Shown here: in pieces, positions 31,065-33,512 of the stretch
Layout of the letters: each line of letters opens with the position of its first letter
Numbering within the stretch: position 1 is the stretch's first letter
NCBI RefSeq assembly: GCF_018687515.1
Contig: NZ_CP061294.1
Coordinates: 682,001 to 746,000 of the forward strand
Reading direction: 5' to 3'
From: Polynucleobacter sp. MWH-Spelu-300-X4
GTDB taxonomy: Bacteria; Pseudomonadota; Gammaproteobacteria; Burkholderiales; Burkholderiaceae
DNA: 64,000 bases
The notes under the pieces: model-generated
Told to the model about the DNA's origin: nothing
Database searches by the model: none
What the model saw: the letters and a program-made list of their open reading frames with translations, nothing else
Program-made: the position numbers and the translations under genes

Positions 31065-33512
31065 ATGACTGATTCCGCTGTCCAAGCTTTAAAAGTACCC
31101 CCGCATTCCGTCGAGGCCGAGCAATCGGTGCTCGGCGGTTTGCTTTTGGATAACAACGCTTGGGATAAAGTCGGCGATGTTATTACTGAAAAAGATTTTT
31201 ATCGCCCTGATCATGGTTTGATTTACCGAGTTATTGGTAAGTTGGTTGGTGAGGGTATGCCTGCGGACGTTATTACAGTGTCTGAGGCAATGAAGACGCA
31301 AGGTGGTGGCGAGGCGATAGGTATTGATTACCTTAATGCTTTGGCGCAATCTACTCCAAGCGCATCGAATATTCGTGGTTATGCTGAGATTGTGCGTGAC
31401 CGTAGTGTATTGCGTCGATTGATACAAACTTCCGACACGATTGCAGGCACTGCTTTTACGCCTGAAGGCCGTTCAGTTCAAACGATTTTGGATGAGGCTG
31501 AGTCTCGTATTCTTGCGATTGGTGAAGAGGGTAGTCGCGGTAAAACGGATTATTTTGAAATTGCACCATTGCTCACCGATGTGGTGAGTCGTATTGATGA
31601 GTTGTATCACCGTCAAGGTTCTAGTGATGTGACAGGTGTTTCAACAGGCTTTGTTGATTTAGATAGACAGACTAGCGGCCTGCAAAAAGGTGATTTGATC
31701 ATCGTTGCGGGAAGACCTTCTATGGGTAAGGCGCAGCCGCTTGACGCTCAAATTAAAACCTATGATGGTTGGAAATTCATGGGGGATTTACAGGTTGGCG
31801 ATAGATTGGCGTCATTTGATGGTGAGCAGTCCTTTGTGACCGGCATTTATCCTCAGGGGTTTAAGCAAATATTTAAGGTGACACTCTCGGATGGTCGTCA
31901 GACAGAGTGTTGCGCTGAGCATTTGTGGAGAGTCATGTACCGTGATTGGTCTGAACCTCGGGTTATTAATACGGAACGCCTTATCGAGATGTTGTCTTGC
32001 GCTCGTTATAAAAATAGATTGTGGGTAGATAATATTTCTGGTGATTTTGGGCATGATCGTGAACTGCCTATTCATCCATGGGTGTTGGGCGCCTTATTGG
32101 GGGATGGTACGTTAGCGCTATCTCATAGTAGTGTGATGTTCTCCACGAAGTCGCCCGAGATGGTTGAGCTGATGAATGCCTTAATGGGCTATGAGATGGA
32201 ATTGGTTCACGCAAAAGCCTATGACTGGAGGGTTGTGTCAAAGGAGCGAATCACAGTCAATGGCCGTCGAACAGTGGTGCCCAATGCTTTTAGAGGGGCA
32301 TTAAATGATTTAGGGTTGTTGGGTACTCGAAGTCATGACAAGTACATTCCGACCGAATATTTAGAGGCCAATAAAGAATCTAGGTTAGCTCTATTGAGAG
32401 GTCTTTTAGATACGGATGGCTGGATTGAAAAGTGGGGTTCTATCCGTTTTTGTACAGTTAGCCAGCGGTTGGCTAACGATGTTGCAACTTTAGCTAGATC
32501 TTTAGGAGCATTTTGTTCGATTGCAACGAAATCAACATTCTATGTGTCAAATGGCGAACGTAAACAGGGGCAATTAGCTTATGTTTTGAACATGGCTTTT
32601 GAAGCAGGGTTAGAAGTTTTTACCTTGCCTGAGAAGAAGGCTAGATTAAGGAGTAGTTGGAGTAGGCAAAGACGTTTAACTTTTAAGAGTATTGAGTCAT
32701 CAAGAGTTGCTCAAGCCCAGTGTATTTCCGTTAGCCATCCAACTAAGACATACGTGACGGATAACTATGTAGTGACACACAACACTGCATTTTCTGTCAA
32801 TATCGCCGAAAATGTCGCGTTGAAAGAGGGCCTGCCTGTTTTAGTTTTTTCCATGGAGATGGGGGCTTCTCAGTTGGCTTCTCGTATCTTAGGCTCTGTG
32901 GGCCGTATTGATCAGTCACGCATGAGAACTGGCAAGTTACAAGACGATGAATGGCCGAAAATTACAGAAGCCATTTCTCGTTTAAATGAAACCACCATTC
33001 TGATTGATGAAACTGGTGCCTTAAGCAGTCTTGAACTAAGAGCGCGCGCTAGACGTATTGCGCGCAAGTGTGGCACGTTAGGGTTGATTGTCGTTGACTA
33101 CTTGCAGTTGATGAGTGGTAATAGTGGCGGCAATGGTGAAAACCGTGCCACTGAAATTTCTGAGATTTCAAGGTCTTTAAAGTCACTTGCTAAAGAGTTG
33201 CAGTGTCCAGTCATAGCTTTATCTCAATTAAATCGTGGTCTTGAGCAAAGGCCGAATAAGCGTCCAGTGATGTCGGATTTACGTGAATCAGGTGCTATTG
33301 AACAGGATGCCGACGTTATTTTGTTTATTTACCGTGATGAGGTATATCACCCTGATACCACTACCGATAAAGGTATTGCCGAAATTATCTGCGCAAAGCA
33401 GCGTAATGGCCCTATTGGTACCGTTAAATTGAGTTGGCAAGGTCAATTCACGAAATTTGATAACTTAGCCCTAGGGGCAGGCCAGTCTTCTGGCGGATAC
33501 GAGCCTTTTTAA
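31065..33512 (+). CDS. dnaB: Replicative DNA helicase DnaB precursor interrupted by an intein
   Basis: Hexameric 5'-3' helicase of the replication fork. The 815-codon frame encodes an N-extein (residues 1-222, with the N-terminal dimerisation domain), an intein (223-573), and a C-extein (574-815) with the RecA-like motor: VIVDYLQLM, DLRESGAIEQDADVI and RPNKRPVMSDLRESG. The exteins joined give 464 residues, normal for DnaB. The intein splits Walker A between Lys and Thr (GRPSMGK / TAFSV), so no ATPase activity is possible until splicing. Last gene of the rpsF cluster. No Shine-Dalgarno is obvious. Confidence 0.97.
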   Translation: MTDSAVQALKVPPHSVEAEQSVLGGLLLDNNAWDKVGDVITEKDFYRPDHGLIYRVIGKLVGEGMPADVITVSEAMKTQGGGEAIGIDYLNALAQSTPSASNIRGYAEIVRDRSVLRRLIQTSDTIAGTAFTPEGRSVQTILDEAESRILAIGEEGSRGKTDYFEIAPLLTDVVSRIDELYHRQGSSDVTGVSTGFVDLDRQTSGLQKGDLIIVAGRPSMGKAQPLDAQIKTYDGWKFMGDLQVGDRLASFDGEQSFVTGIYPQGFKQIFKVTLSDGRQTECCAEHLWRVMYRDWSEPRVINTERLIEMLSCARYKNRLWVDNISGDFGHDRELPIHPWVLGALLGDGTLALSHSSVMFSTKSPEMVELMNALMGYEMELVHAKAYDWRVVSKERITVNGRRTVVPNAFRGALNDLGLLGTRSHDKYIPTEYLEANKESRLALLRGLLDTDGWIEKWGSIRFCTVSQRLANDVATLARSLGAFCSIATKSTFYVSNGERKQGQLAYVLNMAFEAGLEVFTLPEKKARLRSSWSRQRRLTFKSIESSRVAQAQCISVSHPTKTYVTDNYVVTHNTAFSVNIAENVALKEGLPVLVFSMEMGASQLASRILGSVGRIDQSRMRTGKLQDDEWPKITEAISRLNETTILIDETGALSSLELRARARRIARKCGTLGLIVVDYLQLMSGNSGGNGENRATEISEISRSLKSLAKELQCPVIALSQLNRGLEQRPNKRPVMSDLRESGAIEQDADVILFIYRDEVYHPDTTTDKGIAEIICAKQRNGPIGTVKLSWQGQFTKFDNLALGAGQSSGGYEPF
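31731..32783 (+). mobile_element. Class 3 intein with LAGLIDADG homing endonuclease inside DnaB
   Basis: A self-splicing element of 351 residues. It begins with Ala (AQPLDAQ) instead of Cys or Ser, and ends with VVTHN before Thr+1. The class 3 signature is present: block B His64 and Trp66 (AEHLW), block F Cys331 (AQCISVSHP), and block G Thr349 next to His350-Asn351. The endonuclease insert has two LAGLIDADG motifs, LGALLGDGT (DnaB residues 341-349) and GLLDTDGW (446-453), with KYIPTEYL between. All catalytic residues look intact, so both splicing and homing may be active. The insertion point is the ATP-binding loop, a site known for DnaB inteins. Confidence 0.95.

Follow-up and report, generated by a model that had tools for sequence, protein, structure and literature searches.

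The dnaB gene of Polynucleobacter sp. MWH-Spelu-300-X4, a member of a genus of free-living freshwater bacteria, very probably carries a class 3 intein in the P-loop of the helicase. The intein is bifunctional, containing a homing endonuclease of the LAGLIDADG family, and is an element that appears to have been gained and lost recurrently within the genus. The gene lies in a stretch of 64,000 nucleotides (nt) of contig NZ_CP061294.1 (positions 682,001 to 746,000), hereafter the window, whose numbering is used below. This reading draws on the anatomy of the insert, its active-site residues and predicted fold, its presence or absence in relatives, discordant intein and extein trees and a footprint in the flanking DNA, all taken from sequence.

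In the mechanism that we propose, Cys331 (intein numbering) would attack the Lys222-Ala1 peptide bond and take up the N-extein, which would then be transferred to Thr+1. Cyclisation of Asn351 would free the intein, and an acyl shift would rebuild GRPSMGK-TAF and hence ATP binding. The target of the endonuclease in dnaB alleles lacking the intein would be some 30 base pairs long and centred on GGTAAR/ACTGCATT; once such an allele is cut, its repair would copy the intein in. A search of the window's own genome returned one match to the intein and one to the DnaB C-extein; the single dnaB match and the P-loop position of the insert suggest that replication depends on splicing. The features are as follows.

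31065..31730, plus strand: DnaB N-extein, 222 amino acids (aa), ending ...GRPSMGK of Walker A (Pfam DnaB, 1.1e-32)
31716..31730, plus strand: putative homing-site footprint, 5' half, about 15 nt (filled-versus-empty allele comparison)
31731..32783, plus strand: class 3 intein, 351 aa (residues, Pfam, profile matches, predicted fold)
31731..31733, plus strand: Ala1, no class 1 nucleophile (Ala in 67/67 genus copies)
31908..31928, plus strand: block B, C60-C61-A-E-H64-L-W66 (genus and homologue alignment)
32085..32111, plus strand: LAGLIDADG motif 1, LGALLGDGT, acidic D125 (D in 67/67; aligned to PI-SceI motif)
32400..32423, plus strand: LAGLIDADG motif 2, GLLDTDGW, acidic D229 (D in 66/67; aligned to PI-SceI motif)
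32721..32723, plus strand: Cys331 (F:4), expected initiating nucleophile (genus and homologue alignment)
32775..32783, plus strand: Thr349-His350-Asn351, G:5 to G:7 (genus and homologue alignment)
32784..33512, plus strand: DnaB C-extein with stop codon, first residue Thr+1, the P-loop Thr (Pfam DnaB_C, 1e-102)
32784..32798, plus strand: putative homing-site footprint, 3' half, about 15 nt (filled-versus-empty allele comparison)

Anatomy and splicing class of the insert

The dnaB open reading frame (31065-33512) encodes 815 aa. The insert (31731-32783) comprises 351 codons flanked by K222 and T574, and DnaB minus the insert is 464 aa long. An original prediction, made from the window's letters, had described an 815-codon DnaB interrupted between Lys222 and Thr574 and had named A1, W66, C331, T349, H350 and N351; the coordinates were reproduced and each residue was found where it had been placed. 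With Pfam LAGLIDADG_3 the intein scores 34.6 bits (cut-off 22.5). The splicing half alone matches the solved gp41-1 intein at 8.3e-9, and a profile of 18 relatives matches PI-SceI at 3.2e-16, the Mycobacterium smegmatis DnaB intein 6bs8 at 7.4e-15 and gp41-1, whose N-terminal half is the nearest solved sequence, at 1.9e-19. The gp41-1 intein is a split class 1 intein, and its 128-residue chain has no endonuclease. Elsewhere in the genus, 66 dnaB genes have an unbroken homologue at the window's insertion codon. Together with the Pfam and solved-intein matches, these copies confirm at the level of sequence that the insert is real and surpasses chance resemblance.

The insertion splits the Walker A Lys from the Thr (GRPSMGK/T). 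This is DnaB site b, located between the P-loop Lys and Ser/Thr as in M. smegmatis DnaBi1, according to passages of PMC6195587. Passages of PMC5222942 characterise class 3 inteins by the lack of a position-1 nucleophile, by Trp at B:12, Cys at F:4 and Thr at G:5 (the WCT triad, a mark of the class), and by Ser or Thr, instead of Cys, as the usual +1 residue. In the window the Cys, Ser or Thr of class 1 is replaced by Ala1, and W66, C331, T349, H64, H350, N351 and Thr+1 are all present. Block B has Cys at B:6 and B:7, His64 at B:10 and Trp66 at B:12. The three residues of the triad line up with those of 6bs8 and occur in all 118 homologues having both junctions, among the 120 homologues listed; the triad, block B His, penultimate His and terminal Asn are kept in 67/67 genus sequences. 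These residues support the class 3 assignment of the original prediction, at DnaB site b, and the triad aligns with known inteins, which had been suggested as a check.

Distribution and flank footprint in Polynucleobacter

The DnaB C-extein was found in 171 of the 186 genus genomes searched. The set analysed consisted of the window's dnaB and 120 others, 66 whose open frame spans 833-841 aa and 54 whose frames are short; the 50 genomes outside this set of 121 rows include the ambiguous frames G139, G177 and G199, and G042, which was examined separately as locus L029. The 121 genes comprise 67 filled and 54 empty alleles, counts that describe a selected set and give no population frequency. Whether the intein is fixed or polymorphic in the lineage had been left as a question; it is polymorphic between species, and the suggested comparison with close relatives revealed empty sites even in the window's own clade, where 13 occur.

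On the extein tree, the observed presence and absence require 29 state changes, 21 of them forced by starred branches, compared with 40.6 on average for shuffled labels. This suggests a presence that is clustered yet far from a single origin. A single tree for intein and extein was rejected both ways by the approximately unbiased test, for which the program warns that 2000 resamplings are few. Strong splits number 27 in the intein tree and 29 in the extein tree; 10 are shared, and another 10 of the 27 in the intein tree are contradicted by a strong split of the extein tree. The window falls in a clade of 14 rows (support 92; 98 for the inner 13 rows) whose other 13 rows are empty. P0001, a filled protein from a metagenome, is the window's sister in both trees, with an extein at 94% and an intein at 90%. 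P0022 is the next by extein (85%) but has a more distant intein (67%), and P0024 and P0028 have distant exteins (46% and 45%), yet inteins at 61% and 57%. These comparisons point to a history of partial vertical descent with repeated lateral gain. The direction of any single change is an interpretation of the tree; for the window's lineage, lateral acquisition is the most likely one.

Column tests of the flanks compared 66 filled rows with 33 empty main-clade rows, excluding the window, its 13 empty clade-mates and 8 distant empty rows. Among 401 variable third codon positions, the largest differences between filled and empty alleles were at +2 and +5. The mean difference was 0.313 for the nine columns within 15 nt of the site and 0.110 for the 392 others (p = 3.5e-6), and it fell back to 0.114 at 15-30 nt. 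The top eight of 457 ten-codon segments all overlap the insertion site. ACTGC was present 3' of the site in 45/66 filled and 6/33 empty alleles; the change at +6 is nonsynonymous (T in 66/66 filled and 24/33 empty alleles). As these column and motif counts ignore kinship, sister-pair tests were made on all 121 rows, with independent pairs taken from a tree for which 60 nt on each side of the site had been left out. Position -1 ranked first of 410 (mean agreeing pairs 9.2 versus 0.5) and +2 second (9.8 versus 1.7). The nine near columns had a mean of 4.50 against 0.76 for the other 401 (p = 6e-5), and four of the top 15 columns lay within 15 nt of the site. ACTGC alone gave 17 sister pairs; in 200 pairings p had a median of 0.02 and ranged from 0.006 to 0.23. 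Protein-level selection on splicing cannot explain the third-position signal. The footprint fits homing through target specificity, short co-conversion or both, and its position beside the insertion point, together with presence that varies between species, is as expected of a mobile element. The claim is restricted to Polynucleobacter; outside the genus, ACTGCAT was found 3' of the site only in Limnobacter (L057), of 22 loci.

The footprint could also have arisen by co-conversion, with repair copying in short stretches of the donor's flanks and with no target specificity, although a working endonuclease would be needed either way. We regard this as a substantial possibility, while leaning somewhat away from it. 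The window's junction reads GGGTAAG/ACTGCATTT and is filled-like at 7/7 diagnostic sites from -25 to +5, whereas over all 219 diagnostic sites the window resembles its own clade at 148, filled alleles at 45 and neither group at 26. The 60 nt upstream of the site form the sole bin of 14 in which the window is nearer to filled alleles. Co-conversion accords less well with the drop at about 15 nt, which is sharp and without a gradient, and with the heterogeneity of filled alleles near the site. Furthermore, 12 of the 13 empty clade-mates lack ACTGC, but the thirteenth, the basal L141, has it and already carries ACTGCATTT, so that the window may have retained an ancestral permissive site. Long co-conversion tracts were not indicated: the ratio of filled-filled to filled-empty distance was 0.90-1.01 across 14 bins, lowest in the 120 nt 3' of the site, and had no distinct peak or gradient. 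A more speculative reading, which we hold to be somewhat less likely than not, is that the endonuclease influences which synonymous codons an essential gene uses. Empty alleles would escape invasion through synonymous changes in the codons flanking the P-loop junction, and repeated loss and reinvasion would keep a class 3 element mobile in the genus, a natural population of such alleles.

Block B cysteines and the state of the endonuclease

Cys60 and Cys61 are invariant in 67/67 genus inteins, and B:7 is Cys in 115 and Thr in 4 of the 119 listed homologues with a residue there. Splicing might therefore act as a redox-controlled replication switch through Cys60/Cys61 and Cys331, for which the Cys48-Cys118 disulfide that keeps M. 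smegmatis DnaBi1 inactive, as described in passages of PMC6195587, would be a precedent. We consider such a switch rather unlikely. Conservation of these cysteines could reflect a structural or catalytic role, C241 and C262 being equally invariant in the genus, and the position of the disulfide partner would differ from that in DnaBi1; block B is Cys61-x-x-His64 in the window and Asp-x-x-His in DnaBi1.

The LAGLIDADG motifs start at intein positions 119 (LGALLGDGT) and 224 (GLLDTDGW). The window intein has both D125 and D229, exceeds the LAGLIDADG_3 cut-off, and matches PI-SceI by profile and by the fold predicted for the whole precursor, modelled with 63 sequences. All 67 genus inteins are 351-352 aa long, free of stop codons and unbroken. 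Mean column conservation among them is 0.911 for the endonuclease part and 0.927 and 0.907 for the splicing parts. The median ratio of nonsynonymous to synonymous substitution rates (dN/dS) is 0.050 for the endonuclease, 0.037 and 0.046 for the splicing parts and 0.027 for the extein, rough values with dS near saturation. These medians are based on 62 (N-terminal splicing part), 83 (endonuclease), 71 (C-terminal splicing part) and 211 (extein) usable pairs among 250 sampled from the 66 filled rows. They replaced a comparison of the window with the 66 other filled rows, in which dS was saturated and only 0, 3 and 23 pairs were usable for the N-terminal splicing part, the endonuclease and the C-terminal splicing part. 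Of the dN/dS check that had been suggested, the constraint on the endonuclease, similar to that on the splicing parts, was recovered, while the window-based pairs were mostly unusable.

Loci L029 (from the genus member G042), L193, L194 and L195 keep the splicing residues and have lost both acidic residues, which indicates probable decay of the endonuclease in P-loop class 3 inteins. Since such relatives exist, the intact endonuclease sequence of the window is informative. That it is intact in sequence is supported by the acidic residues, length and conservation kept across the genus, in agreement with the earlier description of an apparently intact endonuclease whose two motifs retain their acidic residues.

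If the endonuclease were inactive and the intein only spliced, the pattern would have to be ascribed to losses from a filled ancestor and occasional ordinary dnaB recombination. Intein and extein identities do correlate among filled rows (r = 0.73), the strong splits common to both trees suggest a partly vertical history, and relatives without the acidic residues occur. Nevertheless, we judge this explanation improbable, as nearly all copies retain acidic residues and length, the endonuclease part is conserved equally with the splicing parts, and a sharp flank footprint is unexpected from loss or long recombination tracts. Least credible of all is class 2-like splicing, with direct attack of Thr+1 on the N-terminal junction and no Cys331 step: Ala1 and the +1 nucleophile would suit it, class 2 inteins likewise lacking a position-1 nucleophile, but the complete WCT is invariant in the genus and the homologues, and WCT and Ser/Thr+1 mark class 3 (both points from passages of PMC5222942).

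Several results weigh against a mobile, bifunctional class 3 intein. Position 1 varies over the 120 homologues listed: 114 have Ala and three have Ser, while one has Tyr, one Cys and one a gap. L103 (G154), the sole copy of 67 with Asn at the second acidic position, is a candidate dead endonuclease. A model of the intein alone (21 sequences) had a mean predicted local distance difference test score of 50.5 and was discarded for the whole-precursor model. The trees are single-gene trees from a quick search, and dnaB recombination could inflate the count of changes; two losses in place of one gain could also account for the window, a less favoured history. As for the footprint, columns more than 30 nt from the site make up 10 of the 20 highest in the simple ranking and 11 of the 15 highest by sister pairs (the best at +647), and GGTAA 5' of the site fell short of significance when tested on sister pairs (median p 0.45). 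The diversity of filled alleles at third positions was 0.605 at 0-15 nt, 0.405-0.459 in nine of ten other bins and 0.603 in one; there being no dip at the site, no recent sweep is seen.

Related inteins and wider distribution

The window intein resembles the class 3 DnaB inteins of M. smegmatis (DnaBi1) and M. leprae in host protein, Trp B:12, Cys F:4 and block B His, and DnaBi1 in its insertion after the P-loop GK, as far as passages of PMC6195587 and, for the residues, PMC5222942 describe them. 6bs8 aligns at both ends, including the Trp, the F-block Cys and THN, the second stretch being weak. The mycobacterial inteins, with 139 and 145 aa, are mini-inteins that have Ser+1 and no endonuclease, whereas that of the window has 351 aa, an endonuclease and Thr+1. 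The solved Ala-start DnaB inteins matched without a long insert (6bs8, 6rix and 6riy, 139-146 aa) are too short for an endonuclease. The whole-intein fold and both LAGLIDADG motifs align with those of PI-SceI (the VMA1 intein), but PI-SceI has a different host protein and 17-18% identity over 313-332 residues in structural alignments. PI-SceI uses class 1 chemistry. Phage class 3-type inteins in P-loop ATPases (for example L209, in DnaB of phage LucasX, L210, L211 and L213) share W-C-T, insertion after GK and endonuclease motifs; they are mostly in other host proteins and are at most about 41% identical to the window intein.

The class and the insertion site are thus already known. What appears new is the host group, with comparative evidence of mobility in the contrast between filled and empty alleles and in the footprint at synonymous positions within the genus. 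In the open-access papers searched, we found none on a Polynucleobacter intein and none on a Burkholderiales DnaB intein, and the papers listed on inteins or DnaB make no mention of Polaromonas; most subscription papers were outside the search, so that a description may have been published there. A class 3 DnaB intein with a sequence-intact endonuclease, in a genus with many close filled and empty alleles, makes it testable now what the endonuclease recognises and whether empty alleles are shielded by synonymous drift in the target sequence.

Among 399 evenly drawn Burkholderiales genomes, the window's included, 34 genomes belonging to 17 of 158 genera have some match to the intein; in 10 of them the match is confined to the endonuclease part (residues 111-326). 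The insert follows GK in the seven phage loci and one plasmid locus examined, where host genes include the annotated DnaB of L209 and a T2SS/T4P/T4SS family ATPase (plasmid L215). Class 3 inteins have been proposed to move between phages and mycobacteria (passages of PMC5050341). A scan of viral contigs with the window intein found no relative, and one with P0001 found two loci, at 29% and 25% identity. Phage matches are all below 60% identity (best about 39-41%), and no recent phage donor was found, though one may exist; plasmid matches (34 records) are likewise all below 60%. Base composition gave no signal of recent transfer (G+C content 0.441 for the intein, 0.456 for the extein and 0.436 for the window).

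Other Burkholderiales dnaB genes (L202-L208) have an apparent second DnaB insertion site. The insert there seems to begin with Cys after ...SDLRE (L203), and its last residues, ...HN, are followed by SG (SGAIEQDAD in L207). Some longer homologues, of about 1,190-1,263 aa (e.g. P0029 and P0030), combine the P-loop intein with a PF14890 domain, probably a second intein. L030 (G009:C6:8680-9681), from a member of the genus, is a distant class 3-type intein of 29% identity, located after GK in a gene other than dnaB, and dnaB of the same genome is empty (L140). Judging from its flank, the host gene of L030 may be prophage-borne.
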